Assembly (NCBI GenBank): GCA_037576215.1
Contig: JBANDB010000010.1
Span: forward strand, 3,224,001 to 3,288,000
Reading direction: 5' to 3'
From: Armillaria gallica
Lineage: Eukaryota > Basidiomycota > Agaricomycetes > Agaricales > Physalacriaceae
Length of the DNA: 64,000 nt
In this document: piece by piece, positions 25,694 through 46,289 of the stretch
How positions within the stretch are numbered: the stretch's first letter is position 1
Layout: each line of letters begins with the position of its first letter
Made by a program: the position numbers and the translations under genes
Notes under the pieces: model-generated
What the model was told of the DNA's origin: nothing
The model's input: the letters and a program-made list of their open reading frames with translations, nothing else
The model's database searches: none

Positions 25694-28498
25694 TGCCACG
25701 ATGCCCTTGATTTTGCCTTGCCGTGAGCTGTGCTGTATAATCCTCCTTATCTGCTTACCTTTATTGCGTAAAACAACTCTGCGTATCTGTTCTTCTGATA
25801 ATATGAAACGAATTTGATTTTCCGATGGAACTGCGAGAACTCGGGTTGATAGGAATGGTACGTATTCTGTCCACGGTCAGTCCTTCAAAGAATCTGACGC
25901 AGTCGCATCATTATCATGGTCCGAGCCGCTTCGAAGTTTGAGTCAAGATTTTACTGTAGGAACCCACTTGAATGCATGCTAATAATTTGGGAACATTTAT
26001 ATCAAGGAATATGTGCATCGAAGCATGGAGCTACTATGCAACAATAGGACTGCCATAGTAAGGATCACATGGAAATTATAATTTTTACCGAAGCAGTATG
26101 TCCAGTACTTGAAGAGATGTTTTAATGGTATACATCGAATCATGGATAAAATCACCAAATGCTTATCACGTTCCAGATTGGAACGGTGAACGCGGAGCAA
26201 TGATAGTGCGCAAACTTGACGCGTCGAATTTTGGGTAGACACGCGTTAGTCACAGTCACGGGCCACGTAATGAAGCTTTCCGTTACGATTTCTCGACGAT
26301 TTCAAAATCCCGCTCTCCCAACTTTCATCTTACCGCATATAAGTCTCGAAAGAAACAGGTCGGTTCTGACGACCAGGAAAGTATGGCACCTCGGCATGGA
26401 TGCAAGCGACCCCCAAATGCTCCTGCTGCAGTCGTCGGTCGATAGATTCACCATGCTGCCGAAGGACGTCCCTTTCGAGTTGGGCTAACAGGGATGAGAG
26501 CGTTTTTTCGGAAGATTTTTGGGAACTTAGATTCTCTCGACTTCCTTCACTTTGCATGTCTGACGAGGGGTCTGACTCTCCGAGGTGCCCTCTTTGACAA
26601 GGCGTTTGTCGCTGGGTAGAAGGCTCTGAATGGCTCTGAACGGAAATGTCGTTGATTTACCAAAGCCTCCAGAGGGCAGTCAGAGCCGGTATGGGTTAGT
26701 CTCTAATATGAGACTAGGTCCTATGCGCGTTATATTCTGCTCTATCGATGTTATTTACTTACATGTATTCCGTGATGTCCTGTATCCTGGAAGGCGGCCC
26801 TAGAGTAGAGATAGCAGCCTATCGTAGGGTTAGCTGGGAAGGATAATTGTACGCCGTAACCTCACCCTTATCTAGAAGGCCATGATTGATACTTGAATTA
26901 CATCTAGATCCTATGGGTGTCATACTTCAATAAGACACATCGTGGCACTGGGTTACTAACACTAAGAATATCAGTCGATATCGAACTCCTAATTACGGTG
27001 AAAGTAACTGGACACCGAGTTTGCGGAGTAAGCCCATGATTCTAGTTCGTAGAAAAGTCTTTTCTCCTTCTGTTCAACGGAGAATGAGGCGTGTTATGAG
27101 AAAAACGGAGACGAGAGGCCCTTGCCCGTACGCAGATGAGCCATATCGATGACTGTTTAACCATGACCTATCGGATGTCGCTGCTCGGAGTTGTTATCCT
27201 TGAGAACGGTGATCATGAAAGAATCAGAAAGGCTAGCTGCGTAGGGCTGTATCAGCTTCATCTCTAACTCGTTTATCGAGATCATGCGCGAACCTTCATG
27301 TCTCTGCATAAGGGCGTGCGCATAGCATAGAGCTTCCAGCCTTATCGGTAGACTACAAATAGGGTACCCGGTTTTCGAAATGTATCGCATCGGAGGAAGC
27401 CCAATGGTTAAGGGATGCGGACCTCCAAGAAAGTCGATCAAAATGCGTTTAGTGATAGTGGGAACCTCAATTGGCGAGCAAAGCCTCAAAACGATAATCG
27501 GGCCTGTGGTATATGCATTGTCACCGATTACTTTGGACAATTCGCGGCGCCGTAGTTTGAAAGCTAGTCGGTAGTAACCTCCAAGGAGTAGGTTTTGTGA
27601 CTCATTGCACTGTTCAAATGACACTGAGCCTGGAGTCTAAAAGAAGAAAAGAGGAGGTTTACCTGTCGGAACTTCAGCATTGTCGTCGACATTCTCCAGG
27701 GTCTCGGCATTTGGTATACTTGGTCGAAACAGAACTGCTGGACAACATCGTGTATCGTTGACTTCACGTGTACGCGTGTATGAGGATGGGAAGACGTCGC
27801 CTTTGACATTATCCGGCGACCGCGCCGACTGCGCGCAGCGGGATATGTCTCGACCCTCCAGACACCCACGCCAGGTGTGTACCACGCATAATGGTGAATG
27901 CGTATAGGTGAGAATACATCTAAGGTGGGTGACGAATGATCGTGAATATAGGACGGCATTTACATAGATGGGGCGGGATTCGAACCTTGAAGCTGAAGCT
28001 TGACCGATCGTCTCTTCTTCAAAAAGTTCAATTTGATAACAAAGTGGTCGTATCGAGGACGGGCGACTACGGGCGAAATGAAAGTTGGGTACACAAAGAG
28101 AAGGCTCGAGTAAAGAGCGTACCTCTGTTATTGAGTGTACTTTCGAATGTCAGCCATCGACTGATGGCTTGAAAGTTCTAGTAATTGCGCCAGATCCTCT
28201 CATGCAACTGTTACAGCAGAGATGATGATCATTATCGCTGTCTCCACACAGTCTTCCATCACGAACCAGGGACTCTTAGTTTTGATTTCCATAGGACGAC
28301 CTCAGCATGACGTAGGATCTAGGGACTAGCTTTACCGATATAACCAGCAGAGGAGACACATGCTACATACAGATCAGCGATGGTAAGACAAATGAGGAGA
28401 AATGGGCATACCTCACGCATGGATTAAACAACCCAAGTCGAATAAGCACCTAGAACGATGAGCGTCGGATTTATTCTGCTGCGGGTAGCTGCCGGCCA
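25694..28498. other. Metacaspase 3' flank, then weakly coding sequence
   Basis: 25,700-25,820 is the 3' untranslated region; a similar piece recurs on the minus strand at 58,080-58,245. Beyond this I see a coiled-coil-like frame at minus 26,557-26,330 (LLAQLERDVLRQHGESIDRR) and a longer frame at minus 27,624-27,157, listed separately. No named gene. A GGTTCGAATCC box (tRNA T-loop/box B consensus) sits on the minus strand near 27,972-27,982 without a recognisable tRNA around it. Confidence 0.3.
27157..27640 (-). CDS. Possible last exon of an unrecognised protein (about 160 codons)
   Basis: The frame is open on the minus strand from a good-looking acceptor (CTTCTTTTAG at about 27,641) to a stop at 27,157. 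It has phrases such as LLGGYYRLAFKLRRRELSKVIGDNAY, PIIVLRLCSPIEVPTITKRI and MISINELEMKLIQPYAA. It has no ATG at its start, so upstream exons are required; candidates lie at 27,640-27,960 (containing NAETLENVDDNAEVPTG) but the donor/acceptor distance there would be only about 26 bp. Length and composition suggest coding; family unknown. It could equally be a relic. Confidence 0.35.
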
Positions 28499-28505
28499 TA
28501 CGTTG

Positions 28506-28620
28506 GAGGCTATACCGTCCATTTTGTCCACAGATGCCCTGTAGCAACAGGGAATGGTTTTGTACACAAATCCCTGTAACTACAGGGCGCAAGGTTTGTG
28601 TACAGGTCAGGGACGGGTTC
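28506..28620 (+). repeat. Left terminal inverted repeat of the KDZ element
   Basis: Contains two near-palindromes, CCCTGTAGCAACAGGG (28537-28552) and CCCTGTAACTACAGGG (28572-28587), separated by TTTTGTACACAAAT, and then TTTGTGTACAGGTCAG. The same series occurs inverted at the right end. Confidence 0.75.
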
Positions 28621-29412
28621 AGTCCACAGCGCGGAACCTCTGTAACCAGGCTGTCACGCTTAGATTTCCCACGCTTTCCTGTATCCTATGCTCCGCCCTC
28701 CCGCTCGTCATACCCCGCCCTGCGCTCTTTCTATTCCCTATTTGTATCGATATTTATTTTTGGGCTTGATCTTAGCATCTTTTTGCTATATGATGGGATC
28801 TCTGTGCCTAGGGATAGTCCCTTCCTCGATTTACTTGTTCGATCCGACAGTCTTCTGTGCCTCTTCTTGATTTATCCCGATATATCCTCTGATTCTTGTT
28901 CCAAACTCTCCGAAAGTATGTCGGGGTGGGTACGGCCGGGTCCCCCTGTATCAGTCTCTGCGATATGTGCGCTCGGTCATGAGCCTAGACCCAAACTAGT
29001 TCAGTGAACAGCGAACTGTCTGTTCACAACTCTAACGACAGGAAAAGTTACAAATAAAAATACGGGAAATATATCTAGCATACTTTTCCGACTTCTCAGC
29101 AGTTGCCACTGTGAGCTCAGACATTTATCCTGCGCTGTGAATAGATGTCCCAATCCTCTCGTTAACATTTTCTTGTGCACAGAGGGTCTTCCTGGTGTGT
29201 GTACAACTGCGCCTAAGTTGTCCATAGCTCACTTTCCTGTGTTGTGCACAAGGTACTGCCATACCGCCGAGTCTTCCTGGTTTGTGTACAGCTGCGCCTA
29301 CGTTGTACACATCTCACCTTCCTGCGTTGTGGACAAGGCCGCCACATTATTCGGGTACGTCCCTTTATATATTGCCATGCTGGCGCCTTTCGTTTGGTGC
29401 ACCTGAATCCCC
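28621..29412. repeat. Left subterminal region with 84-bp repeats carrying TTGTGCACAA motifs
   Basis: No gene is supported. Two units beginning TCTTCCTGG at about 29,188 and 29,272 repeat with an 84-bp period; each contains TGTGTACA, a TTGTCC/TTGTACAC site and a TTGTGCACAAGG / TTGTGGACAAGG site. The stretch lies just upstream of the gene at 29,413, so the sites may serve transposase binding, promoter control, or both. Confidence 0.6.
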
Positions 29413-30221
29413 ATGTCCCTCTCAGAACGACCAACCTCACATCCTCAGAGACTTCCTCTCGCTGCTCCGACTGTCGAGAGTGAGATAGATGCCGATACGG
29501 CGGCTCTTTTTGACTTTGACTCTTTGTTTGAAGACCATTCGACTCCTTTCTCTTCGTTTGTCAATTACTTCTGTCTCCTTGACTCAGTTTGTTCATTACT
29601 CTCGCTGTGCAGAAACGTATTATTCTATCATCCGTATAATGATATACACACCATCGAAGTGTAAGAGCTCTTTTTACGCTATTTAGTCTCTTTGTTCACT
29701 CTATACCCAGCGCAATCATCGGAGTCTTACCCATTCCAGGGTTCTATGAATACGCGATCCGACTCGACTATTCCCCAGAACAGCGACTCTGGCTTGCCGA
29801 ACGTGGTCCCAAATTTGAACGTGCTGTTTGCCGCAATCGGGTCATTCCCTTTTTCCGACAAGTTTGGCGTGATTGGTTCGTTGAGTGGCCCGGCGCAATT
29901 CAAAGTACCCCTACGCAAACAGAGAAGGAGTTCAAGCAGATGAGGGCCGATGAGGAGCACAGGAAAATTGTATGTCTTTCTCTTGTCAAGTTCGAACTGC
30001 CCTGCTCATTTGTAACTATTCAGGAAATTTTTACCTTGTACATAATGGGCCTCAAAAACCGATGGATTGAAAATGGGCCCCCGCCTCAGAATTGGACTCA
30101 GGCGAGAGTGTTCGCAAAGCTGCAAGAGCTCGAGGAGATGATCACGCGGCGATTCAAGTCGGTAGAGCATTACTTTGTGGAGATCGAGGAGCGTTGGAAC
30201 GTAGAGGATTTAGGTCTATAG
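29413..30221 (+). CDS. KDZ-element cargo protein with helical QR-W-L domain, 215 aa
   Basis: Exons 29413-29555, 29613-29660, 29711-29969 and 30024-30221; introns of 57, 50 and 54 bp, all GT...AG and in phase. The N-terminus is low-complexity and acidic (ESEIDADTAALFDFDSLFED). The centre has LDYSPEQRLWLAERGPKFER and IPFFRQVWRDWFVEWPG, a pattern of aromatic helices that I also see in three other proteins of the same element (34,225, 37,455 and 41,054). The C-terminal third is charged and helical (EEMITRRFKSVEHYFVEIEE). Proteins with a related W-L-x-E-Q-x-x-W-L start are common in mushroom genomes without named function. A DNA-binding role is a guess. The middle exon has no ATG, so the gene is invisible to simple ORF calling. 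Confidence 0.68.
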
Positions 30222-30337
30222 ATAGTACACTTGCTTCGCACATCAAAACCTTTTTACAATTTCATGCATTTCAATACAAATACAATAGAGCGCAGTAAGC
30301 AGTAAAAAAAAAAAAGTTTGATGTGAGAACTACTTTG

Positions 30338-33300
30338 CTACATACGACGGTCACGTAAGTCAAGGTTGATCGTAGGATCAAAGTCGGCTGAAGAGGTAGG
30401 CAAAGAAGCCGTTACTTCACTCCACTGGGTCGCTGCGCTCGCGCAAAGGTCTGACCACATGGCGGCCTGCCTCAGTGCGTACGCCTTTTTCCCCGGTGAG
30501 CTTGCACGTGCAGCTCGGTCCTCCCACACGTTGCAGTAGTTTTGGAAGGTGACTTCGATCCGACGGATCTCCTCCGTCAACAAATCACACTCCTCCTGCC
30601 AGCGCTGGGCGCGAGCGCGAGACTTGCACCATTCAATACGTAACGCTTAATTAAAGGAATGTAAGTACGTGAGTTTCAGCGAAGTCAAGATTGATTGACC
30701 TTCTTGCAACCCTTTCTCACCTCCCTGAAGATTCGTCTTCCATATCCACGACAACGTGCGTTGTCCCTCGGAGGTCCCCTCGTTATACGAATCCAATCCA
30801 CGTACATCTTCTGGCTTGAGGGGTGATAGAGCTCCCTTCCACTCCTGGTGGCCTAGGGCCGCAGATACAGCCTCCAAAGCGTTATAAACACGTCGGTATC
30901 GTGCCGCGTCTGCTTGAATCTTGGTCTCCACCCTATGCATCAGGACATTTGCTTTCGTTCCGTATCGCTGTCCCCTGGAAAACCGTTGACGCCATATCAT
31001 CAAATATGATTTCAATAGCAGATGATCACGTAATGTTGCCAAAGTATCGTGTGCCTGAGCAAGACGTAGTCGGCGCTCATCGTTAATGACCGTATTTTGA
31101 GTGGAGGGATGTACAGCATTGAGCCGCAGTGCATGAGAGGGAAGGTACAACGGGACCTTGGAGGCATGCACTTCGACACCGGGGGCACGACGATCGTCAT
31201 CCCTGGCCCGTAGCAACGTAGTCCTTGGCATGTAAGTCTTCTGTACGTCAATCCAAGCATCAATTTTGCGAGAGATGCGATTAGCCTGTTGTTGCACTCG
31301 GGTGCGTTGGAGATCAGTCGAATGAGTTCCGAGCCCGTTCATGTCATCGATCAGTCGTACCCTCAAAAGTTCGTTAGACTACGACTGTTAAGCGCTGTTG
31401 TGAAGACATACTGGGCTTCCTCCAATTGCAAACCCTGAGCGATGAATTCGCTAGGGCTAACGTCGTGACGGATTTCAATCTTAGTTTCCTGTTTCTCTTC
31501 CCTAGCTAGCTCAAGGCGTACTGCATTTTCCGTGACAGCTGGATCCATCTTGCATGAGTTAGATTTATACTATCCAGATAAATGACTTACGACGTAAAGT
31601 CGGGGCGAAAGGATTAGGCTTTGTCCGATCCATTTCCCAGCTCAAAACCATGGAGCGCCACTGGACAATGGCCTCCGCATGCTCCGTTTGTAGAGCGTCT
31701 TCGTAACTCATAAATTCGAGTACATGCTCTGCGCGCGCGCTGAACGCATCCCAAAATCTTTGGCAAATTGTCTGTGCTACTCATAGCCATGAGATGAAGC
31801 CTTGGCAGTAGCAGTGAACTACGAACCCATAATAACAATCTTGCGCCAATTATAGTCACCAAAATGATCATCGAGTGTGTCTCGCCGTGATCCCGGACCC
31901 ATCTCCTTGGTGCTGTTCGCCAAAGCATTCGTCGCGGCCCAAGTTCTCTCTGGCGCCTCTCCGTCTGTTTGTCCAACCTTTGCCAAGAAGTTGAAGGAGA
32001 AGTCGTTGCGACACTTGAGGATATGCGCTGGTAAATGAAATTTTGGTACAAGATAGAGGATGTTGCGTTCCAGTTGATCGGGTTGCAGTTCGGACGGATA
32101 CTTGTTGATGCGTGCAAAGAAGTTCTTGTGCCATTGGCATGTGATATCATATGAAATCACGAGATCAGGCGGCGTACCGCAGGCAAGTGTTGACAACACG
32201 AAGTAATCCATGTTGATGTACCTAGTAGATGTTTTAGTATATGATTGGATCATTCGTACATTCTTACCTTTCTCCCTTTTGAAGATCGCCGACGGATAGA
32301 GGAAGCTTCATATCATGGCGACCGCAAACTACGGCCCCAACGCCGGTCACTGCCGCTCCTTGACCGCCTCGGCTATTCGCGAGTTTGACAGCGTCGTGAT
32401 TGTTACAGGTGCTTTTTTCTTCGGCCGGAATTATTTTGCCATATTTCTCGAGAAACGATTGAAAAGTGGTTTCGTCCACAAAGTAGGCGTAGCCATGGTT
32501 CAAGCTGGGATCATTATCTTCGCTAGATACATTCAGGCGGCGCAGCCGGAAGTTGGCATCAACTGTGAGAAATAGGCGGTATAACCAACGTTTTGACCTG
32601 GAACAATCTCTGAGATCAATAGTACAATGACTTCACTCGCTGTGGCTTACCTGTTTTCCATCCACCCCGCTGGTAAATTCACATGAGGATGGGGACAAGC
32701 TGGACAACGTGGCACCAATTCCCCGGGTCTCGTCGCTGAAATTCCCCCTGGTTCATGTCCACGGCCAAAGCGCTTCAGACAGCGCAAGTGGCGCCATTCA
32801 CGTATTATTCGTAAAAATGTATCATACCGATCCTAGCGCTAACGTGAGATGTGAGAACGTAAATGGAACCAACAGACGTACTGGAGGAGTATTCAGCCCT
32901 GTGTTGTCCGAGAGCCGGGCCAGTGTGTGATAGAATTCATAGGCAGAAACCTTGGACATGAAAGATAGGACTTGAAACAAGTGCAGAACGCGAAATGTCG
33001 CAGCAGTTTGAGGATAAATTGTGGTCGCGGGCCACAGGCGGCTCCTAAGCAATTGGACGTGCCGCTCAATGGATTGCGTACAATTGCAGAACCCCATCTG
33101 CACGGTGTGAATGCCATCCACGTCAATGACTACAAATGATTTGATGACCGCGGGGAGGATACATTTCTGTCCCAGTCGGTGTCCTAGCTGGATTATTAGA
33201 CCAAGGCTAGTGAGAGTTGTCTTCTTAAAGTAGGTACCCGTCCATTCCTGAGAATGGGAAGTCAGATAGGAATACGCCGCAACAGATTCTTCACTTCACC

Positions 33301-33927
33301 TCGACCTTATGAAAAGGAATGGCCTGGTGACCACCCACAATGCACCTAGCACAGAGCATTCGTCCATCAAAACAAGAGACACAGCGATAATGGCCTTGTT
33401 CGTCATGACAAGCATGACATCGGTCGATTCCTGAAAGTGGCGCTTCCAGACGCAGGATCTCCGCCATAAATTCCTCGCGTTGGGAGGTCCATACCAACAG
33501 TGGGTGATCCTAGTTGGAATTCAATGATAGACGGCTCTTGAAAGATGATTCCACTTACACCTAAAGGCCTAGGGCGTCGTGTTCCTTCTGCCTCGCCGTT
33601 TGCGACCTCAGCGGGAGCACTATAATCGGGGTCCAGAAATGACATCCTAGACATACTGGCCAGTATGGAAGTATCAAAGAACATGGGTTCCGGAGGAAGC
33701 AAAGGAGGTTCTTCGACATTCCCAGCAGACATAGGTACTGACTGTATCGCGACAGCCATTGTTCGCACACTGATGCCAGAGGAGTCAACTCGAGAGGAGT
33801 AATCCGTGTGATGGTGATAAGTCTGCGATGAGCGTGGTACCCGAACCCGAACTTCGTCTTCATCACTGGCTTCATCAACAATGTCCACTGCTGCACGGCC
33901 CCCTCTTTTCTTGCGACTGTAATTCAT
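30338..33927 (-). CDS. KDZ transposase with CxC2 zinc cluster, about 1045 aa, intact
   Basis: Exons (minus): 33927-33559, 33509-33300, 33247-32882, 32832-32651, 32597-32268, 32221-31827, 31779-31591, 31538-31412, 31361-30700, 30645-30338; nine introns of 46-54 bp, all GT...AG and in phase, 3138 coding bases. Residues about 124-193 hold the Cys cluster (CHACHDEQGHYRCVSCF, LCARCIVGGH, PFHKVE) known as the CxC2 domain of KDZ transposases. The core has VDANFRLRRLNVSSED (Asp about 389), CNNHDAV, GVGAVVCGRHDM, SYDITCQWHKN (Asp about 511) and TDGEAPERTWAATN (Glu about 574), then the HFGDYNWRKI motif. A long helical C-terminus (ENAVRLELAREE, SPSEFIAQGLQLEEAQ, EWCKSRARAQRWQEE) follows. It is predicted to cut and join the element's inverted repeats. 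I found no stop or frameshift, so it may be active. Confidence 0.92.
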
Positions 33928-34224
33928 GAGGTCAAGTTAAACGATTAGAGGGACAAAGGGCGTTGAGAGAGTTATCTCTTACGATTGACTCACCCAACTT
34001 TAAGTATACCACGTGAAATATTCTTTTAGGGCTGGTTGAGGTTGTAAGCATGTCGCGGTGGGTGTCGTACTCGATTCCGTCGACATATGGCCGTTGATGA
34101 ACCGACATACAGCCAGATTTTCTCCGAGGATCTGATTGGAGGAGGAAGTAGAAGCAAAGAGGAGTCCCATTTAGGAAAGACCCTACTATGTTTCACGTGT
34201 GAGTCAAACATACAGTACAACTAT

Positions 34225-34776
34225 TTAAAAGTCGTTATCAGCAAGCTTGCGCGGTTTGGGAGTCTTTTCGCTCCTCCGGAAAGAACCCCCTGACGTCCCT
34301 CCCTCCTGCCCACAGCCTTCTTCTGCCTTACTCTCCCCCCCCCTGCCTTCCGACTCTGCTCGCTTCCTTGCCTTTCTTTTCAATATACCTTCCGCATAGA
34401 ACGGAGCCCAAAATTCGAGCGTCTGAACAATCAAAGCAAGGTCCTGCATACAGGTCAGCATCCATTCGGAGAAATAGGACCTACGTTAATCAACTCACAT
34501 TTTGGCGGCATGTGTTCCAGTGTTCACAAGCTTCTTGGTCCTCAGGGTCCGGGGATTGGAGCTCGGTTCGAAATCGATCATGCCAGACCAGCCACAGTTG
34601 TGATTGGAATTGAGCATATGCTCGCGGTTTTGTACGAGCACTTCTCTTCACACGGCGGTATTCGAGGAGATAAGGTCGCAGGAAACGCTTTTGGACTGGA
34701 GTGATGGGTGGAAAAGCCGACCTATAGTAGTTCAGGGTAAACCTAGGACTCCATAAAGAATGGCAAGTACTCACAT
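34225..34776 (-). CDS. KDZ-element cargo protein, 147 aa, start codon split by an intron
   Basis: Exons (minus): 34776-34775 (AT), 34721-34499, 34443-34225; introns 34722-34774 (53 bp) and 34444-34498 (55 bp), both GT...AG. The only in-frame ATG is made by joining AT with G across the first intron, giving MSAFPPITPVQKRFLRPYLL; the GTG at 34774 is simply the donor. The middle has TPVQKRFLRPYLLEYRRV and QLWLVWHDRF, similar to the QR-L...W pattern of the proteins at 29,413, 37,455 and 41,054. The C-terminus is very basic and Gly/Lys-rich (KRKARKRAESEGRGGES), which suits a nucleic-acid-binding or nuclear protein. It shares a roughly 420-bp divergent promoter region, full of TGTGCACAAG motifs, with the gene at 35,196. 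Confidence 0.6.
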
Positions 34777-35195
34777 TTTTCTGCTTCAGTTCAAAGTGGT
34801 TGTGTTAACGGGGGCTAGTTCTTTCTAGAGTCATCGTTGCTTCTTTTTGAGGGTGAGGAATTCCTGTCAGGTGCATGAAAGTTCTCTGTTTTGTGTACAG
34901 AACAACATCCTCACTTGTGCACAAGTACGACCGGTGGACTAGCAGATGACGGTCATTTCTGTTGGGTGCGTGACAGTTCTCTGTCTTGTGTACAGAATGA
35001 CTTCCTGACTGGTGCACAAGTACGACCTGCAGGCTAGCAGATGATGGTCATTTGGCTCATTTCCTGTGCAAACAAGTAGGCTCCCTGATCTGTGTACAAG
35101 TGCTCGCCCTGGTCAGTGCACAAGTACGACCGGCCATTCGGCCAAGGGGTCTTGCCGTGTCGGATGCCGAATCAACTCTTCGTTTCCCGTCTAGC
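34777..35195. promoter_or_regulatory. Divergent promoter region with repeated TGTGTACAGAA / GTGCACAAGTACGAC sites
   Basis: Two copies of an approximately 117-bp unit (from about 34,863 and 34,980) each contain GTTCTCTGT(T/C)TTGTGTACAGAA followed by GTGCACAAGTACGAC and GCTAGCAGATGA-like sequence. A third partial copy ends at about 35,130. The region separates divergently oriented genes and carries the same palindromes as the element's ends. Confidence 0.6.
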
Positions 35196-35980
35196 ATGGT
35201 TACGCCCAGGCGCGCCCCCATCGAAGAAGCAGAGCGTCGAGAGGCTCACAACGCCTGCAGCAGACGCAGCTATGCCAAGTAATTTCATTTTTTAACCTCC
35301 TTCCATGATTTTCAATGAATCCCCCAGGAATCGCCTTTCAATCAATCAACGATGTAGAGATACCTATCACCGGCAGAAAACGCACCCATCCAAGGCAAAC
35401 AGGTGAGGAAGATCGCAATATTGCTCTAATGGCACTCCTCTGACAATGTACCAGACCCTTGGAGCCCCTTATTCGGAAAGCTGCGCGCCTGGTGGACATT
35501 GAGGTTAATAGTGGACACTCTCATACTCAGTACGTTATTCCACGCTTCTGCGCCTACTCTCCCTCACAAGTCGGTAGGCGGAGCTCGGAATTGGCTGAGG
35601 CTATGGACCAGGTTGAACGGCTTTCTGCGCGGTTCAGAATAATCACAAGCGGATCCCCAAAACGGCACGCATGCATTATATACAAGGAATACGCACGGAC
35701 GATGACCGAGGATCACCCTAAAGGCTGTCGCAGCCTTATCAATAATGCAGTCCTGGAGATCTCATCCCTCGAACAATCCCTTCAAGAGTACGAGAATGTC
35801 ATACTCAACTATGCTGGCGTCGGGAAGGAAATGAAGCGGTATCGTTCGGTCTGGGAACCCATACAAAGGTTGGTTTGTTGGTTGGAAGAGATGCTATGCG
35901 AGGCCATGATCAGTCCGGAAGGTTTAAGGGAGAAGTATGACAGACGCGAACTCGCGTTTAGGGCACTCAATCAGGATTGA
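35196..35980 (+). CDS. KDZ-element protein with basic N-terminal region, 227 aa (paralogue of 35,995 gene)
   Basis: Exons 35196-35278, 35328-35402, 35455-35980; introns of 49 and 52 bp, GT...AG, in phase. The N-terminus is strongly basic: REAHNACSRRSYAKNRLSIN, then RCRDTYHRQK, resembling the DNA-contacting basic region of bZIP-like proteins, but no leucine zipper is obvious. The C-terminal part is helical and ends WEPIQRLVCWLEEMLCEAMI. The convergent neighbour at 35,995-36,834 has the same layout (SKRYYVRNRHDISVRRKAVYR ... GEPIRCLVRWLEDIWRAGID) and is a paralogue by motif order. The two stop codons are only 14 bp apart. Predicted nuclear DNA-binding factor of the element; target unknown. Confidence 0.68.
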
Positions 35981-35994
35981 ATTGTCGTAGCTAC

Positions 35995-36834
35995 TCAAAT
36001 AAATTCTCTCTGCCACATAAGCCGTTTATTGCCATATGCAAATCTCAACTCCTGAGGACCATCAATACCTGCTCGCCAAATATCCTCCAGCCAACGAACC
36101 AAGCATCTGATCGGCTCTCCTGCCTTCGACAATTTTTTCTGCTGCTCACTGGAACCATCAGCCTGGAATGCCTTGGCAACCACCTCAGCATAGCTCTTTT
36201 GTAGGCGGTACAAGTCATCCAGGGGATCAACAAACAGAGAGAGCTGGCCTTGTCGTCGAGAGTTACTTTTAAAATAAAGTCGCAGGACAACTTCGACGTA
36301 GTCGTGGGGCATCTTGCCTTTGAGAAGGTCCTCGAACTCTTGCACGATGGCTCTGGCATCCGCACCAAATTTTGGAAACAGATCTGGAGGAGGTGCAGGC
36401 TTGGGTGCAGTAACAGGGCTAAAAATATCCATTATTACCACAGAGAAATAGAAGATATTTGAGAACACAAACACAGATACAACCTCGTACTGGTTTGTGT
36501 TGCGTAATCTCTTGAGGCAAGTGACCAGCTTCGTCTCTACTACAGAAGAGGCTGACTCCTCCGAGTCAATTTTGGGAGCGGGCTCGCCTGCGATTCTGAA
36601 AGTGAAATTATAAAGTGGAATTGTGAATAGACGCAGAGTTTGTTACCCCTGGGGACGATAAACGGCTTTGCGTCGAACAGATATATCATGTCTGTTTCTG
36701 AGTGGAAACAAATGCCGTCAGGAAACGCTGTAAGATAATTCATCAGGTACATACCTCACATAATAACGTTTACTCTTATCTCTGATAGCCTGCCGTTTTT
36801 CTGCAGGGGTGCGATATTTTTTCGGTGGTGCCAT
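35995..36834 (-). CDS. KDZ-element protein with basic N-terminal region, 243 aa (paralogue of 35,196 gene)
   Basis: Exons (minus): 36834-36755, 36697-36647, 36595-35995; introns of 57 and 51 bp, GT...AG, in phase. It starts MAPPKKYRTPAEKRQAIRDK and continues SKRYYVRNRHDISVRRKAVY, a basic helix like that of the opposite gene at 35,196. The middle contains a Pro-rich linker (APKPAPPPDLFPKF). The C-terminal helix GEPIRCLVRWLEDIWRAGID matches EPIQRLVCWLEEMLCEAMIS of the partner. A hydrophobic stretch in the last exon (VSVFVFSNIFYFSVVIM) is unusual; it may be retained intron sequence rather than protein, although I found no in-phase splice that removes it. Probably a DNA-binding partner or antagonist of its paralogue. 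Confidence 0.65.
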
Positions 36835-37454
36835 TCGACGACGTGGGAGGAAAAGGACTTCGTAACGGCTTGATCAAAGTTGCTCTCATACCCAATTGGC
36901 ACTTTCATCTGATCGTCTCACCGTATCATCGTTTGTGTCCCTTCTGCCCTCCTCTTGTATGGTATGTACTCCCAAATATTCTAGATGATAATAACTATTG
37001 GTGGCAGAGGTTCTCTGAGTGATATGAGGTGGTATACTCCACTGGTACATGCGTAAATCCTAAGCACTATTTACTTCGTCTACCCTTTCTACCTTGATTT
37101 CTGACAATTATTCATACCTCATGAATCACAGGAAACGTCAAGAATGAGACCTGCCACAACGTGAATGCCTACAATCCACTCGGGAATTTGTTCATACCTA
37201 CTGGGGTTTCTGACCATCTTCACAAGGATACGTATCCGTATGTATCAATGTAGCCACCATTCATTCAACTACAATGCCCAGGTTTTCTTCGCTGATTATG
37301 TGATAACCAGCTTGCGTCCGACAGTACTCAGACTCGCCTGTAACGTGCTTTCAATAATGGAACTGGACGAGCCCCTATCAATGTACCATACCTCACGTGG
37401 CTGGGCAAAGGTATTTAAAGTTCCCACCACTGTCTTCCTCTTGCCATCCTTACC
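36835..37454. other. Divergent intergenic region inside the KDZ element
   Basis: It separates the minus gene starting at 36,834 from the plus gene tentatively starting at 37,455. Upstream exons of the latter could lie here (for example around 37,370-37,410), but I cannot support them. Unlike the other two divergent regions it has no obvious TTGTGCACAA cluster. Confidence 0.35.
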
Positions 37455-38260
37455 ATGGCTTGTCTTTCATACACGATGGTCAGTTCATTTCTTCTATGTC
37501 GACCTCAAGATTTACCCAAAATTTCCTAGTCTCAATCCAAGTACCTACAAACCACGCATATGGATGGACTAAAGACAGAGCACAATGTAAGTTCCTTGCC
37601 ACCTCAGTCGATGTAGAAATTTTCCAACCCATTTTGAATATCAGGTGGCTACTCAGTTCACCCGTCAACGCTTGGCGTTCCTTTGGGATCACATCGATGA
37701 ATACGTCGACGCGATATACAGCGGCCATGGCGACGCCTGGTTCGATGACATGTTGGGGAAATACATGGCTCAATTTCCGGATGCGGTGCTCAACAAACGC
37801 ACATCGGGAGACCGGTTGCATTTCTACAGCATCAAGTCGTTGAAAGATGTACGTTTATATCTTCCCCGGACTTTCTTAAGTACGCTCACACTGTTGTGTT
37901 TAGGATCTGTTAAAATGGATGGACAACCATGGCTGCGCACAGGTAAAGACTGGATACGCCTGCAACAAGGAGTTCAACACGACTCTCACAAGCACCCGCG
38001 AAGTCACCGCCACTACCATTGAAGAAATGTCTGCCGGTGGAAGCGACGTTGCCACTGCTTCTGACTCCTGCACGTCAGAGGAAACGAGCTCCGTAGATGA
38101 GCTGAGCAAAGAGGGCACGGAAACGTTGAGTACTCTTGACGCCCAAATCAAAGAGTTGGAACAGTTGCATGCTAAGCTTCAGGAGGAGAGAAATGAAGTA
38201 CGCGTGTGTGCCATTGATATATGGCTTGAGGGAGTTCGTCTCATGATGAACTCGAACTAA
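37455..38260 (+). CDS. KDZ-element cargo protein with helical QR-L domain and acidic/Ser-rich C-terminus, about 213 aa
   Basis: Exons 37455-37478, 37530-37586, 37645-37848, 37904-38260; introns of 51, 58 and 55 bp, GT...AG, in phase. The start is tentative; more 5' exons are possible. Residues about 28-75 read TRQRLAFLWDHIDEYVDAIY and WFDDMLGKYMAQFPDAV, the same aromatic helix pattern as in the 29,413 and 41,054 proteins. A Ser/Thr/Glu-rich stretch (ATASDSCTSEETSSVDEL) follows, then a short coiled coil (LDAQIKELEQLHAKLQEE). Function unknown; the layout of a helical domain plus acidic tail plus coiled coil could suit a transcription regulator. Confidence 0.58.
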
Positions 38261-39955
38261 TGGTCAACTCGCTTCGCTAGAATACACTTCTGTACCCGTT
38301 TCAAAATGTCATCTTTATCTGTTATATGTTTGACGCACGGAAAAGTTTTACATTTCTTGATGCAGTCGCTTCTTGGTCGCTTCTCAAGTAAACGTAAGTA
38401 AAAATAATTTCATCTGTACATAGTAAGCAGGAGCCCCGCAAAATAGAAATTGGTAAAACGAGGCAGGAAATGTTTTATTGAAGTGTTCCTGTTAATTCAT
38501 GTCCTCTCGAGAATAGTAATTGATGACCGGAATTGTATGAGAATGGCCTGAGTTGTGCACCAAAGAGCCAAGAAAAAAGAGAATCACACTGAGCTGACAG
38601 GTAGATCCGCTAGAGAACGCAATTAGAATAGTGGCAACATGTACCAGGAGCCTGAGTTGTGCACAGAAGAGCCAAGAAAAATGAGAACCGCATGGAGCTG
38701 ACAGGTAGATCCGCTAAAGTGGGCAGTGGAAACGTGTACGAGGTGCCTGAGTTGTGCACAAAACAGCCAAGAAACGTGTACGATGCGCCTGAGTCGTGCA
38801 CCAGCGGGATTGATGGAATCGAGTTTCAAACAAACTGGGCAAATAGATCTGTCAGATTCATATCTGGAGGGCAGGCATTATATACAAGCAGCTTGCATTG
38901 TGCACAGAAATGCCAAGAGACCCAAGCTTCTGACCAACTAGATGAAGAAAACTTTCGGAAGTGTGTACGAAGGTGAGGACCATAGATAAGTGACTGGCAT
39001 TGTGCAAAAGTAGAGCAGAATCAGGCGAGCTATGTCCCAGAAATAGCATTGAAATAGTGAACAGCTGTGAAAGCTCCCTGAGTTGTGCACAACTGGTATT
39101 GGATGACCCGAAAAATGGGGATCAGTTAAGAGAAGCCATGTGTAGAAGCAAAGAACCCGTCTGAGTTCAAGTAGGAGAACAACGTCGATCATTCACCTGA
39201 GAAGAAGTCGCATGTACTATGTAGAAGCCGAAAAGAAGACGAAGCGGTTGAAAATCATCTTCGGATCTTCAGGGGCAGATCAGACGTCAAAATGAAAATC
39301 GGCGCATCATACGACAATCCTCGTTCAAAATTATACAGAAGAAAAGACAAGTAATATACGCACCTGAGGACCAGGAGGGACAAGGGAGGGAAGGGTCAAA
39401 TTCATCCTAGTGATATCTGAATAAGTGCCGAACAATCCACAGAAAGGATTATATTAAGCTACGAGTAAGCTTTTCATCGGGTGTTGCCACAAAGCCTCAG
39501 CTCTGGATCGACTGTAAAATCTAAGATATAATATGTAACAGTCTTTTTCGGCTGCTGCAAGCTGCTGTACTTGAGCTTGTTTAATGTCGCCTAGTAAATG
39601 TTGCATCAATGTTGCATGGTAACTAATTGCGAGCTCAGATCAAGATAGCGGGACACAAATTGATATTTGGGGGATGGTGGTAGGTATGGGACACTTGACA
39701 AATTGGGAGTAACTACTACGGGCACTGGATATGAAGAAGGTACAGCGAATCAAGAGAATATCTACAGAGAAAGTATAAAAGTGAATTTACATGCCAAGAA
39801 AGATGCAAAGATAAATAAAAATGAGTAAAGACCGTGATGAAATGAGCGTGAAAGCGGATGATAAATAAGACAGGATATAAGTCAAATTGATTGACACAAT
39901 GGCTAGCGAAAAAAAATGGTCCAAAAAAGTATGAGAAAAGAAACAAGGTACCCGC
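38261..39955. repeat. Internal intergenic region (convergent gene ends) with TTGTGCACA repeat cluster
   Basis: 1.7 kb without a supported gene. From 38,550 to 39,090 there are at least seven TTGTGCAC(A/C)-type sites (for example near 38,552, 38,656, 38,752, 38,894 and 39,082). Two of them lie in approximately 105-bp units that share GAGCTGACAGGTAGATCCGC (near 38,591 and 38,695). The flanking genes end here, so these are not obvious promoter sites. Confidence 0.55.
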
Positions 39956-40720
39956 TCAGTGGAGGACTTCCACAGTGCCCATCGTCAGAGCCTCATTGAA
40001 GGCCTCGCTTGCAGCAGCCTGGTTCGCGTGACAGAAGTAACATGCATGCCCCACCCCAGTAACTAACGGACTGACGGTCTGCCTGAAAGAAGATGTATCA
40101 GATAATTGAAGCAACCTCTTAGTTAGAAATTGAGCTTACCAGCCCTTGAAGACGCCTATGGAAAGGCCTTTGGACACCGTATACCATGGTCCATCAGTAG
40201 CAGCAGGCATAGACCCACTGGCAACAGGAGGAGTGGAAGGAGGAGGCAGAGTAGGGGTGCTGACCGTGTCAGCAGACTCGGTGGTGGGCAAAGCGGCGGG
40301 TGCAGGAGTGACAGGAGGCTGAGGCGGGGGGATGATAGAAGCGGCAGTTGCCTGCGCCAAGGGTGCCATAAAAGTTGACGACGGTCTAACCATGAGTCCA
40401 TGGGCATGGCTGGCTACCGCCGGACCATGGTGAGATGGTTGGACAGAAGCGGGAATGGCTATAACCGGCACGACATTAGGGAACAAGCAATTAAAGCAGT
40501 AAAAGGACTGGAGATGTCCTTCGACTGTGCTGGGCGACCTAGCGGCAGGGGATTCGGGCATGACCGAGGCTTCGTGGATAGTCGTTGCATCTAATCAATA
40601 AAGAATGCCGTTAATATTAATAATAATAAAAGTCCTTAGAAAATTTGACGTACCACTAGCAGGAGAGATGCCAAGGGCAGCTAGTGCAGAAGCAAGCTGT
40701 TCAGAAGTGAATTGGGACAT
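39956..40720 (-). CDS. Viroplasmin-domain protein of the KDZ element, 214 aa
   Basis: Exons (minus): 40720-40654, 40590-40140, 40082-39956; introns of 63 and 57 bp, GT...AG, in phase. The N-terminus is MSQFTSEQLASALAALGI, a short amphipathic helix. A long Pro/Ala/Ser/Thr linker follows (PPPQPPVTPAPAALPTT). The C-terminal 60 residues match the viroplasmin fold: WYTVSKGLSIGVFKGW across the splice, then QTVSPLVTGVGHACYFCHAN and EAFNEALTMGTVEV. This small fold is known from caulimovirus protein VI and from the N-terminus of eukaryotic RNase H1, where it binds RNA/DNA hybrids. Here it occurs without an RNase H domain. It is probably a nucleic-acid-binding accessory protein. It is transcribed divergently from the 41,054 gene across a 330-bp region with four palindromic motifs. 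Confidence 0.78.
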
Positions 40721-41053
40721 TTTTTTCAAGGCAGATGAGATGCAGATTGGTGATCTTCAAGAGATGTCCCAGCCTAGCTTTATAGTCGAGCGGAACCCGT
40801 CTTTTGTGTACAACTCAGCAACGGGGCTTGTGCACAATTCAATCCCAAAGGGTACAAAAGGTGCACAATCCAGGAGCCTTTGTTGTCCACAAACCCCCCC
40901 CCCCCCCCGCGCTCCTTCCTGCTGCTCCTCAGTTGATTTCGATTTTTTAGATGCACGTTGATCAGTCGAACCTATTTTTGGACAAATCGTGTCATTGGTA
41001 AATGTCCACGTGCGCTTTCGTTATCGGTCTAGGCTGACCTATAATGATGTCAG
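40721..41053. promoter_or_regulatory. Divergent promoter region with four TGTGCACA-like sites and a C15 tract
   Basis: TTTTGTGTACAACTC, CTTGTGCACAATTC, AGGTGCACAATCC and GTTGTCCACAAACC follow one another between about 40,800 and 40,895, then a run of 15 C at 40,894-40,908. It lies between the starts of two divergent genes. Confidence 0.6.
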
Positions 41054-44000
41054 ATGGCTCGGAAAAAAACACAATCCCTGGCAAACGGCAATGCCCAGTC
41101 TCCTAGCACGACATCGTCTGCGACTTCTGCCATCCCCAATGCGACCGTCCCCACCGCTAATCCCGCCGACCCTCTCGCACGCAAAAGAAAAAAAGGCTGG
41201 ACCAACGACGACCAGTGCGACCTGCTGGACGGTTTGATGGATGACTTTCAACAGGCTGCTGCCGATGGAACCTTGCCAGCGTTCAAAGCTATGGTACTGG
41301 GTCTTTGGCAGACTCGTTATCCAGAGAGGTTTGGCAAGTACTTCTTGGATCGTGATGGTAAAGTACGCAAGCTTGCTGCTTGCCTGATCGGCGTAGAGGA
41401 TTCCGGAAAGGATGCGCCCTTTCTGAAGATGGTGGGGGGTGTCCTGGACCTTGGTCCGGCGCATTGCCTTGATGGTTGTGATTTGGCAGAGCCCGATGGT
41501 GATGAGGAGTGCGGTATGGTTGAGGAGCCGAATCCAGAGATTGTGGAGGTGCGCCTGGCCTTTGGGGATGCCCTTGAAGCTCGACGAATGGTCAGTCTGT
41601 CTTTTTCTCATGTTATGAACTATAGCTGACATACCTAGCAGAAACTGTATAACTGGTTCGGAAACCACAAGCCCGCTCGTCGCATCAGGAGGGGAGGAGG
41701 ACTCACATGGTTTTCTCTGATTCCCACCCGTGTCCCTCAGCCAATCCACAAGTATTCCAAGATGTATTACGCAGAGCGCGTTCTTCCTCGTGTCATCGCT
41801 GAAGCAAAGGAGCGTGGTGTTGTTCGTAACGACCTTACCCTTGTGAAGGAAATGACGGCACATGCATGGGCCAACGAGTCGCCAGAGATCAAGCAGTCTG
41901 TTATGGATGCGATCGAGAAAGACAAGGAGTTGATCGAGAGGTTGAAAGATGGTACATTGGACGTCAATGTGTCGGATGCTGATAAGTGCACATTCGTGGT
42001 TTTCTGGTTTCTGTACTAGCTGTTACCAACTGTATTTGTTAACAGAATCATCGAGAGCCTTCAATTCGAACTTGGAGCGATTTTTGAACACATCAACAAG
42101 TTCACTGATTGGGGGTTTGTCGTTCTAGGTGTGGGTTACGATCCGCGGACTGGCAGGGTTCGAACTACCGTGTAAGTTCCTGTCTTTGAACATTTCTTTG
42201 GAATATTCTAACATGAAACATGGTTTAGATACAACTATACCTGCCAAGACGCGAATGGCAAGGACTTTATCAAGTCTTTCAACGAGAATGCCGCGGCAGG
42301 ATACATACCTGGCACCATTCCCGGCGACTCCCGCACCTTCTCCGAGTACTTTGGTGTTCCCTTCATGCATCACATGAAGAAAATAACTAGTAAGTTATCA
42401 TTATCTACATTTCCCTTTCTTTTAGCTCATATGATTATTTAGAAGAAGCTATTCGTCTCGGCAAGATCAAGGAATCACCGAAGGCAACGCAGACCATCTC
42501 CAAAGGCTCTCTCAATGTTGACCCTGCACATCTTTTCGACGATGCTCCTCCCCTGCCTGAGTTATCGGCACCTGTCCATGATCGCTCCCAGCCGCAGCAA
42601 AACAAGAATTCGGCCACTCGTCCGGTTCTCTCGTCGGCTAGCCCATCAGTGTCCATCAACGTGTCTCCACCACCTGTTTCATCATCCGTTCCGGCCCAAA
42701 ACTCGGGGGCCACTTCACAACACCGCTCAATGACACCTCCAAACGGGCTTCCCAACGACGAGCCTCTCTCGTTGGTTACCTTGTCGGTGTCCACCAGCAT
42801 ATCTTCGCACTCTATGACGCTTCCGAACAACGAGCCTCTCTCGCCGGTTACCTCGTCAGGGTCCACCAGTGTCTCTTCTTCGTCTGTTGCGACTTTGGAC
42901 AATGCCGACAGCACGCCAACATCGTTCGGTATTCTGCCTGGTACTCCCAGTCTCGACGACTTATTCCATGGGTTTGAGCATTGGGATGGGAGCTCCACTA
43001 ATGGTGCACCGGGCCCATTGTTGACCCAGTCGAACTCGAATTTACCAGGGATGTACCACTTTTCAAATAATCTCCCTGGGTTGTCGCAGCAATTCAACTG
43101 CTCAGATTTAGCTGGAATGGATTGGACCAAGATTGACTGGACCGCCGTTACTAACGGAGTTACTGAAAGCTTGCCGCCCGTGCCATCTTCCATGCCGATC
43201 GACGTGGTGACCTCCACCTCAAACCCAGCATTGCCGCCGACCGGGCCATCGGAATCAATCACAAACGATGTAATCTCTAACTCGCACTCAAGCTTGCAGT
43301 CCGTGCCGCCCGCCATGTCAATCGATGACGTTACCTCCACCTCGCCAGCAACCTCGACAATAACCGATTTGTCTACTACCTCCTCCCAATCCCCCCCGAA
43401 AAGTGCGGTGACCCGAACAGAAGTCCCACCGACCACGTCATCGACCACCTCTGCAGTAACTTCATCCCCGGTGCCACTGCCAGATGTTTCCAACGTATCG
43501 CATCCATCCAGGCAGCGAAGACCCGCGGGTCGGAAGGAGGTAACAACTCTCTCTGTGACTGAGAAGGAGCAGGGTCCACCCAGATGGATTGCTGAGACTG
43601 TAGTGCTGCTCACGGAGGATTCTCTCGGCCTGGCATGGGCTGGTCTTCTTGAAAAGTGGCACCAGCTTGAGCGCGACATATGGAGTTCAGATTCCGATCC
43701 TGTGGTATGATTTCACCATGTTGCTCTGTTACATAAGCTGATATACAATTTTTTCCTAGGGCAAGCTAACGGTGTCGAAGCGGCGCCCACATTCTCTTAC
43801 TTTGTGGCTCGATGGTGCGCACTATTTTGACCTCCCACCAGATATCCATGACTACTCTCAATTTGCATCGGAGATGGTCGACTGGTGGAACCAACTCAAT
43901 CCTAGCTGGCGACGCTCGTTGACCAGTGACGGTTTGCCTCGATCTGACTATACCAGCAAATCACTGCTTGCACTGCGAAAGGGAGGGCAGTATGGTCTTG

Positions 44001-44185
44001 TGACCGTTGTCCTTGGCTTATATTGGTGGGGAAAAGGTCGTCAAGCCGAGGATAATTGGCTGGGCATGGTCAATGACGTCGCAAATGTAATTGACGTTGT
44101 TCTTTGTCCAGAACGCAAGCGGACCGGGCAGAAGCGTTCGATTGACAGTAGCCGCGAGGGAAGTGCAAAGCGTGTAAAGGTTTAA
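41054..44185 (+). CDS. Large KDZ-element cargo protein of an Agaricomycetes-type family, 951 aa
   Basis: Exons 41054-41590, 41642-41985, 42046-42171, 42229-42389, 42443-43704, 43760-44185; introns of 51-60 bp, GT...AG, in phase. The N-terminus is Ser/Thr-rich, then KRKKGWTNDDQCDLLDGLMD and FKAMVLGLWQTRYPERF, the same helical pattern as in the 29,413 and 37,455 proteins. A second block (LYNWFGNHKPARRIRRGGG, SKMYYAERVLPRVIAEAKER) follows, then a beta-rich segment (WGFVVLGVGYDPRTGRVRTT). The linker is about 350 residues, low-complexity and Ser/Thr/Pro-rich. The C-terminus has MVDWWNQLNPSWRR and GGQYGLVTVVLGLYWWGKG and ends in basic residues (KRTGQKRS, SAKRVKV), a likely nuclear signal. I know this architecture from unnamed proteins in many mushroom genomes. 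A role in transposition is inferred only from location. Confidence 0.75.
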
Positions 44186-46044
44186 ACGCTTTTTTTTTTG
44201 ACGCTTTGGGCGTATTTTCTTGTGTGTGAGTCGCTATTTATCCATGATTCCATTCTTGTTCTGCATTATTTGTATTGCTTGCTGCCGGCCCTTCTTATGT
44301 TGAGTTCTCAAGTATTTTATCTATTTCCCGTCCATCTTACGTTTCTCTTGTATTCTATTGTTATTTACCGTACATATTATAAAGTTCGCGCTGTATATTG
44401 TTATCTCGTCTCTTATTTTACCATAACAAGTAGTCTAAAAAATGTATACCCCCATACATACTCAATGACAGTTTATGTATGGTACTACGGTGATGACCAC
44501 AGTGCGTTGTTGGATTCTCGCTGTGGGAAAACTGAGATTAGAGAACATAAGGGACAAAGGTGATTTGGAAAAGGAAATAGGAGGTATACAGGTCAGGGAT
44601 AATCGTTGTACACAAAATCGGGACTGCGCGTAAGTATTCAATTGGACCAGTCGGGGATAGCCGTTGTGCACAGAACAGGGACGCGTGCAAGTATTCAACT
44701 GGAAATGGCGGTGCACAAACCAGGGATATTTGCTGTACACAGAATCGTGACAGTGCGTAAGTATTCAATTGGATACATAATCTCTTGTGCACCAGTAGGG
44801 AGGGGTCCGTGAGACGAGCGTCTGTGACCGTGCGCACATCAAAGCATCCGTAGCCGCTGCGATCTCTTCGGTCTCTAGGTTTCATCGGCTCTGTCCTAGA
44901 ATTGATCGTTTTATTGGATTCTCGGAAAACTGAAATGAGAGTGCGGCAGAATGGCGGTTTCGTAAAGGAAATAAGTGGTGCACAAATCAGGGATAGCCGT
45001 TGTGCACAGAACAGGGACGCGTGTAAGTATTCAATTGGAAATAGGTGGTGCACAAACCAGGGATAGTTGTTGTACACAGAATCGGGACAGCGCGTAAGTA
45101 TTCAATTGGATACATAATCTCTTGTGCACCAGTAAGGAGGGGTCCGTGAGACGAGCGTCTGTGACCGTGCGCACATCAAAGCACCCGTAGCCGCTGCGAT
45201 CTCTTCGGTCTCTAGGTTTTGTCGGCTCTGTCCTAGAATTGATCGTTTTATTGGATTCTCGGAAAACTGAAACGAGAGTGCGGCAGAATGGCGGTTTCGC
45301 AGAGGAAATAGGTGGTGCACAAATCAGGGATAGCCGTTGTGCACAGAACAGGGACGCGTGTAAGTATTCAATTGGAAATAGGTGGTGCACAAACCAGGGA
45401 TAGTCGCTGTGTAGTGTGCACATATCCGGGACGAGGTACAATATTTCTTGTGTACCAGTAAGCGTGGCATCTGTGAACAACGCCTGGGCCTGGATGCATA
45501 ATGGATCATCATGTTGTCGGCCGAGCGACTGTGATATCTTTCATCATTATGTTTCGTCGACTCTCTGATCAATCCCTATCATTTGCCTTAACGGTTTGCG
45601 ACACCCGGATAGAATAGTAGGGACGATGCTCATTTGCCGAACTGTCGAATTTAGAAGAATCCCACGAGAACAGGGTTGCATCTCATAGAATTGATGGAAA
45701 ATAGATGTCTGTGGAAGACAGAAAGACATAAGAGTGTTAAAGCATACATACGCCAAAAGCGGCAACACAAGAATAGTTGTACCTGATGGACAAACACCAT
45801 CATCGTTCCTGCCTCCCTTCGATGACCCTGGTACCGATCACTCAATCTCGATAGACGCTGATACGGAATCTCGATGTCAACCCATACTAGGCAGGCGTCG
45901 GGGAGGCTTGATTTTCTCATCGAGCACAACACCCAGGGAACACAGTACGTCGCAGGCAACAGCGAGCTCGATTGTTCCCAGGATCATGCACCAGGTAGTC
46001 ACAACAGGCGTCACAGGACGACTATGCCACCGTAGGTGTGTGTA
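44186..46044. repeat. Right subterminal region: 337-bp tandem repeats with TTGTGCACA sites
   Basis: Two units start with GATCGTTTTATTGGATTCTCGG-like sequence at about 44,904 and 45,241 (period 337 bp), and a diverged first unit starts near 44,503. Each unit holds GTGCACAAATCAGGGATA, GTTGTGCACAGAACAGGGA, GTGCACAAACCAGGGATA and TTGTGCACCAGTA. No gene is supported from 45,480 to 46,044, although short frames exist on both strands. Confidence 0.6.
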
Positions 46045-46161
46045 CAGCGCTATTTGCTGACCTGTACACACAAATGGCTCCCCTGTAGTTACAGGGATTC
46101 GTGTACAAATCGTTGCCCTGTAACTACAGGGATTTGTGTACATGACGGACAGGATAGGGTG
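46045..46161 (-). repeat. Right terminal inverted repeat of the KDZ element
   Basis: It holds CCCTGTAGTTACAGGG (46081-46096) and CCCTGTAACTACAGGG (46116-46131) with GTGTACAAAT between them and TTTGTGTACA outside, mirroring the left end. Confidence 0.75.
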
Positions 46162-46289
46162 TACGTTGAGTAGTCATATCTGCATAATTGAAGGAAAATT
46201 TATCGAATTAGCCTGCATACATTATAAGAAAAGACGACAAGAGGGAGAATGTACGTACCCAGCCAGTCTCGCCACGCAGTATAGCTATC

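Follow-up and report, generated by a model that had tools for sequence, protein, structure and literature searches.

What do seven further genes do inside a transposon? The question is raised by a stretch of 64,000 nucleotides of Armillaria gallica DNA (GenBank assembly GCA_037576215.1, contig JBANDB010000010.1, positions 3,224,001 to 3,288,000), here called the window, in which a transposase of the KDZ superfamily lies between terminal inverted repeats (TIRs) together with seven other genes. KDZ elements are known mostly for transposase and TET/JBP genes. A preliminary description, made from the letters of the window, had regarded the seven genes as cargo of a complete 17.7-kb element and had suggested a self-contained mobile module with its own regulation. 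With moderate confidence, we favour an autonomous KDZ-superfamily DNA transposon with a conserved backbone of eight genes, in which accessory proteins would act for the element and its basic-helix proteins, or the CxC2 domain of its transposase, would bind a palindrome. If selection keeps such a near-fixed backbone at many dispersed loci, in a genome where no Tet_JBP match exceeds the cut-off, a cut-and-paste DNA transposon can rely on an entire toolkit of genes.

A complete element, a second copy and an empty site

The element occupies positions 28506-46161 of the window (17,656 bp; 28499-46168 once both 7-bp target site duplications are included) and is real and complete. Its termini read GAGG...GGTG and its TIRs are imperfect, about 105 bp long, with 79% identity over 102 aligned columns and two 16-bp palindromes inside each. 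The genome (86 Mb in 28 contigs, the window being on contig C10) contains a second copy of 17,648 bp at G000:C3:3094622-3112269. The two copies are 99.1% identical end to end and have identical end bases, while the C3 copy has flanks unrelated to those of the window and its own 7-bp duplication, GGACCCT. An empty site was found at G000:C6:6048905-6049307, where 403 of 403 bases are those of the window flanks joined over a single TACGTTG, the duplication proposed in the preliminary description. The extent, the inverted repeats and the duplication given there were all borne out, the ends recurring at the same bases in the C3 copy. With two copies, an empty site and an intact transposase, the proposal of a mobile module also stood.

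Identity of both 7-bp pairs by chance would have a probability of 4^-14, and a chance repeat or an assembly artefact was ruled out by the two copies, the two distinct duplications and the empty site. Alignment of the 64-kb window with 24 kb around the C3 copy (E 1e-5) was confined to the element, and the copies are therefore not allelic haplotypes.

The window flanks (28300-28505 and 46162-46365) belong to a dispersed repeat, of which four or more other copies are uninterrupted (identities of 100, 93, 85 and 80%). Besides the C6 site, the joined flanks matched C9:52720 (93%, whole query), C10:3299459 (85%, 63-403) and C21:980249 (80%, 3-399), and the element thus sits within this repeat. A lone element end was seen at G000:C4:2066340-2066670 (L013/L014), where a CCCTGTAACTACAGGG palindrome is accompanied by six matches to GTGYACA, spread over four places; none of the eight element proteins matched in the 19.6 kb around it.

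An ordered gene set recurs at KDZ loci

The genes are called g1 to g8 along the element, the transposase being the second (Table 1). The whole genome was searched with each of the eight proteins and the matches were anchored, within a range of 45 kb, to 25 listed transposase loci; 43 of 446 candidates were scored in the transposase search and 48 of 118 in that with g8, so that locus counts are lower bounds. The locus table was compiled by hand with one place per gene and locus, the one nearest to the transposase, secondary matches being dropped. Six to eight of the eight genes were found at 18 of the 25 loci, namely the two copies of the window type and 16 further ones. The order g1, transposase, g3, g4, g5, g6, g7, g8 and the strands were kept, for the genes present, at 18/18 of these module loci; six genes including the transposase occur at all of them, g7 at 17 and g6 at 6. 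A tree of one transposase exon, covering 16 of the 18 module loci and three of the seven others, set the 16 apart from the three with 100/100 support, but this deep split joins long branches. As judged from these loci, the notable feature of the element is a near-identical gene set kept through its lineage, not cargo as such.

In Armillaria gallica, A. nabsnona, A. ostoyae and Desarmillaria tabescens, the contig with the g5 relative has the same length as that with the g8 relative, and the two genes probably share one contig in each of the four species. Their locus tags differ by three in A. nabsnona (951215 and 951218) and in D. tabescens (1486907 and 1486910), which is what the order in the window would predict.

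The seven remaining loci are without the set: at five the transposase stands alone, and the other two have, respectively, a g8-like match and a g1-like match out of place. The transposase family is therefore not always dependent on the set, which would suit the view that the extra genes are passengers, captured once by an ordinary KDZ element and without a role in transposition. The activity in Cryptococcus of KDZ elements of about 9-11 kb (PMC12810828) and the two young copies, in which no coding constraint is seen since their divergence (see below), speak for it as well. We nevertheless consider passengers unlikely, given the order and strand fixed at all module loci, the probable linkage of g5 and g8 relatives in three Armillaria species and D. 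tabescens, and the constraint on three accessory genes over longer times (median dN/dS 0.25-0.33, the ratio of nonsynonymous to synonymous change).

All g3 and g6 relatives found (18/18 and 6/6, counting one place per locus) have a listed KDZ transposase within 45 kb. Farther than 45 kb from any listed transposase lie 13 g5-like, 13 g4-like, 5 g1-like, 2 g7-like and 2 g8-like places, including G000:C1:6775193, C1:6328136, C6:5672505, C12:194930 and C9:915179-923181; these may belong to KDZ loci outside the scored candidates.

About 13 kb of extra DNA lies between g1 and the transposase at three related loci, G000:C15:1962569-1995499, C5:3657000-3689862 and C17:1557372-1584237. Identity between the C15 and C5 loci is 98.6% over 20 kb and 98.5% over 3 kb beyond, and the C15 locus would measure about 33 kb or more, if it is one element; 4 kb of its extra DNA were read and include an open frame of 326 aa whose KOW match falls far short of the cut-off (E 0.16). 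At two other related loci, G000:C10:2289278-2301624 and C3:1216675-1233149, 11-16 kb of other DNA parts g4 from most of g5, and at the C10 locus the g5 match is split, with about 11 kb between residues 66-169 and 169-218, a pattern like that left by a nested insertion.

Constraint over long times and decay after insertion

Constraint was estimated on single exons of the transposase, g3, g4 and g5 from up to 15 elements, and the median dN/dS, over pairs that are not independent, was 0.23 for the transposase (15 of 105 pairs usable), 0.25 for g5 (14 of 91), 0.33 for g4 (14 of 91) and 0.31 for g3 (10 of 78). These ratios put the constraint on g3, g4 and g5 at about the level of that on the transposase. 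Because the set recurs in fixed order and these three genes are under purifying selection, cargo is the wrong word for it, and we have dropped this label of the preliminary description.

Two results on coding change are less favourable to a functional backbone. Some g3 pairs with low synonymous divergence reach dN/dS 0.5-0.96, and the coding CpG changes between the window element and the C3 copy look neutral, 27 of 72 being synonymous where 35% were expected (p 0.71). Long-term constraint followed by neutral decay after insertion would be the pattern expected of genes needed for spreading. That related elements retain almost the same genes in one order suggests that the extra genes help the element to spread and are not passengers; the accessory proteins would raise its transposition or expression, and selection would keep their genes for this reason.

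Purifying selection on the tested genes, and the intactness of the genes in both copies, could also point to a service to the host or to a partnership of host and element, in which selection acts via host fitness and not via transposition. We regard such a service as very improbable, since the copies are dispersed, many and partly broken, with stops at several loci, since the two young copies decay neutrally, and since g3 and g6 relatives keep to the neighbourhood of a transposase, with some g1, g4, g5, g7 and g8 places (5, 13, 13, 2 and 2) lying farther away.

Transitions between the window element and the C3 copy fall at CpG in 115 of 138 cases (95 of 105 on the window side, 20 of 33 on the C3 side), a signature that is best read as a methylation scar; CpG methylation of repeats has been measured in the mushroom Marasmius oreades (PMC9674265). 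The CpG changes are uneven (2/43 at the left end, 4/109 at the right end, 12/35 in the g5/g6 spacer), and differences between the copies in general are rare in 28506-33500, absent from 45506-46161 and dense over most of 33.5-41.5 kb. This unevenness may come from gene conversion or from uneven methylation.

A palindrome array in the non-coding DNA

Within the element, 6.2 kb of intergenic sequence hold 25 copies of the hexamer GTGCAC and 11.4 kb of genic sequence hold two, against 7 in the 46 kb of flank; the corresponding counts for the longer TTGTGYACA are 24, 0 and 1. When all 64 six-base palindromes were compared with Markov resamplings, GTGCAC (25 versus 1.9 expected) and TGTACA (17 versus 2.1) stood out. 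Motif matches were counted on both strands by the same rule in genes, flanks and intergenic DNA, a perfect TGTGCACA or TGTACACA-type palindrome giving two matches to GTGCACA or GTGYACA. The 52 GTGYACA matches therefore represent 40 places, 12 of the spacings being 1, and no more than 25 GTGCAC palindromes account for the 35 intergenic matches to GTGCACA; 21 GTGCACA matches are left once the right-end block is removed. Both ends carry such sites, and so do the region 5' of g1, two divergent spacers out of three, the stretch between g6 and g7 and a right subterminal array; the eight genes together hold one GTGYACA match.

Related elements were scored against a resampling maximum, taken as the top count that any palindrome reached in 100 Markov resamplings; in most of them the non-coding DNA used for counting amounts to 0.8-2.9 kb per element. 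In a sister group of six elements with moderate tree support (89/82), TGTACA occurs 6-11 times versus 0.4-1.3 expected, exceeding the maximum in four and equalling it in two. One more distant locus has GTATAC 5 times versus 0.1 expected, and ATGCAT in C9 merely equals the maximum.

Motif binding by the basic-helix pair would be the most testable idea for an accessory role. The g4/g5 pair, or the CxC2 domain of the transposase, would bind the TTGTGYACAA-type palindromes that occur in TIRs and subterminal regions as well as in most spacers, and by this binding the element would control its own promoters and ends and compete with host CpG methylation. A bolder version, in our view somewhat unlikely, is a sequence-specific self-recognition in which each lineage of elements would have its own palindrome (GTGCAC/TGTACA for the window element, TGTACA for the sister group, perhaps GTATAC and ATGCAT for further ones), to be read by the pair of basic-helix proteins, which would activate the promoters of the element and hold off host CpG methylation, as a fungal counterpart of VANC in an unrelated superfamily that would replace TET/JBP. 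Motif arrays that differ between lineages would make the self-recognition and self-activation of a transposon directly testable in a fungus.

Several observations weigh against a regulatory role of the motif. The divergent g5/g6 spacer is without it; a palindrome rises above the resampling maximum in only 6 of 18 element groups, with three ties and nine below, and the long C15:1976 and C5:3673 stretches are among these nine. The structure model of the g5 relative of A. nabsnona, with a long helix (10-44) over the basic region and an all-helical domain (101-227), matches generic helical bundles only and no particular known fold. Finally, CpG changes are no rarer near the motif (0.104 at 0-25 bp versus 0.107 beyond 1 kb), and no lasting protection by a motif-bound factor is therefore seen.

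The independence of CpG decay from the motif and the nine groups without a comparable array would also be accounted for if the palindromes were bound by a host factor, or were a by-product of tandem duplication, in an element without regulation of its own; the right-end sites do come in part from such a duplication (44707-45006 / 45044-45343, 96%). This is a real possibility, if not the one we favour, as the matches form separate clusters (nine at the left end, then seven, nine, four and, at the right end, 22, with one in the genes) and the sister group has a different palindrome. Regulation by the element itself, the second half of the earlier proposal, is plausible through the array, and the CpG-decay test speaks against it.

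Genes and proteins of the element

The coordinates are collected in Table 1. Gene models were obtained ab initio, some of the eight final ones being corrected from first versions. As the preliminary description had stated, all eight are uninterrupted spliced frames in the window element, and the C3 copy has no premature stop.

Table 1. Coordinates of the features of the KDZ element, in positions of the window
Feature	Position	Strand	Basis or remark
Target site duplication TACGTTG, left	28499..28505	.	single copy at empty site C6:6048905-6049307
Left TIR, GTGTACA-type sites and two CCCTGTA..TACAGGG-type palindromes (28537-28552, 28572-28587)	28506..28610	+	
GTGYACA cluster 5' of g1	29150..29345	.	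9 matches in 28506-29412, both strands
g1, 215 aa, exons 29413-29555, 29613-29660, 29711-29969, 30024-30221	29413..30221	+	no Pfam family; first intron uncertain
KDZ transposase, 1076 aa, 11 exons, CxC2 255-360, KDZ 432-660	30338..34170	-	Pfam
g3, 147 aa, modelled start codon split by an intron	34225..34776	-	no Pfam family over cut-off
GTGYACA cluster, divergent g3/g4 region	34777..35195	.	7 matches
g4, 227 aa, basic-helix paralogue 1	35196..35980	+	pairwise g4/g5 score
g5, 219 aa, basic-helix paralogue 2, exons 36755-36834, 36647-36697, 36491-36595, 35995-36418	35995..36834	-	
g6, 195 aa	37560..38260	+	relatives at 6/18 module loci
GTGYACA cluster, convergent g6/g7 spacer	38540..39100	.	9 matches in 38261-39955
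g7, 214 aa, C-terminal Cauli_VI (ribonuclease H1 N-terminal / viroplasmin-type), residues 158-199	39956..40720	-	Pfam
GTGYACA cluster, divergent g7/g8 region	40721..41053	.	4 matches
g8, 951 aa	41054..44185	+	no Pfam family
Right subterminal GTGYACA array	44573..45460	.	22 matches in 44186-46161, right TIR included
Right TIR, palindromes 46081-46096 and 46116-46131	46057..46161	-	
Target site duplication TACGTTG, right	46162..46168	.	paired with left copy and empty site

Among the eight proteins, only the transposase and g7 gave Pfam matches above cut-off. The KDZ core of the transposase (PF18758, residues 432-660) matched with E 1e-64 and 218.6 bits versus a cut-off of 26.6, and CxC2 with E 6.6e-41, CxC1 also being barely above cut-off over the same stretch; the Cauli_VI domain of g7 scored 23.2 bits versus a cut-off of 21. 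The KDZ transposase and the viroplasmin-domain protein of the preliminary description were thus recovered, and so were its two basic-helix paralogues, g4 and g5, whose pairwise score has a z of 11.2 with 0 of 300 shuffles as good. A basic region starts both proteins and recurs in 13/13 relatives (14 elements with that of the window), several of which have stop codons. A helical segment said to be common to g1, g3, g6 and g8 could not be confirmed, as the pairwise scores lie within those of shuffles; a g8-family profile aligned the expected stretch of g1 and g3 at E 0.12 and 0.098 only, and another stretch of g6 at E 0.04. Not expected was a possible segment shared by g1 (29413-30221) and g5 (35995-36834), with z 4.9 and 0 of 300 shuffles as good. 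The nearest named relatives are, for g8, a protein of A. gallica (85% identity over 89%) and, for g5, one of A. nabsnona (69% identity over the whole length).

No TET/JBP enzyme had been seen in the element, and none of its eight proteins matched Tet_JBP in Pfam. Genome-wide there were 0 Tet_JBP matches over the Pfam cut-off, in a search that did not extend to the divergent PE type of PMC12730594, and Tet_JBP cargo was ruled out. Three matches lie below cut-off (24-28 bits; G000:C6:353126, C1:6301914 and C2:4747036), each farther than 45 kb from the listed transposase loci; that at C1:6301914 is 26 kb from the g5-like place C1:6328136.

Comparison with known systems

Like the Starship giant transposons, the element is a large fungal DNA transposon with many genes; Starships have a variable cargo, whereas the KDZ transposase is accompanied here by a near-fixed set. 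The Starship captain is a tyrosine recombinase, and no such enzyme appeared when the eight proteins were compared with Pfam at E values up to 1. In En/Spm, which belongs to the CACTA superfamily and has 3-bp duplications and one accessory protein, the element also encodes TNPA, which binds repeated motifs in the subterminal regions and has a regulatory function.

Among KDZ elements, the founding paper by Iyer et al. (PNAS, 2014) reportedly mentions additional proteins, including a divergent HMG domain. In the portions of the KDZ literature covered, which did not take in this founding paper (Iyer et al. 2014), no description of the eight-gene set was found. By its transposase the element is classed as KDZ, with the sub-lineage left unassigned because its termini and TIRs misfit two Kyakuja families, despite the 7-bp duplication (PMC12730594). 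In that study, Kyakuja elements have 7-bp target duplications and CA..TG termini, two Laccaria families are said to be without TIRs, and Zisupton and Dileera have an 8-bp target site duplication. The window element shares with the Kyakuja of Agaricomycetes (Kojima 2025, PMC12730594) the KDZ transposase, the 7-bp duplication, the Agaricomycete host and a right end in ...TG; it differs in its left end (GA, not CA), its imperfect TIRs of about 105 bp, its seven other genes and the lack of the TET/JBP dioxygenase that TET-containing KDZ elements encode. The 8-bp duplication of Zisupton and Dileera is not seen, 7 bp being found at two insertions and the empty site. In Pleurotus, CxC2 precedes every intact KDZ element (PMC7641404). 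KDZ1-KDZ3 of Cryptococcus neoformans are likewise large, mobile members of the superfamily with TIRs, unlike the window element in their size of about 9-11 kb, in having CxC1 and not CxC2, and in their 8-bp or 4-8-bp duplications; no comparable gene set is described for them in the sections available (PMC12810828).

The palindrome array has a parallel in the VANDAL/VANC system of Arabidopsis, in which short family-specific motifs are dense in non-coding DNA, partly in tandem, in a host that methylates its DNA (PMC5735166, PMC10398659). Such a motif density is found in the window element and in part of its relatives only. VANDAL elements are from a plant and another superfamily, and VANC binding and demethylation have been measured, whereas the window element is known from sequence; VANC21 motifs have one orientation, whereas those of the window element are palindromes.

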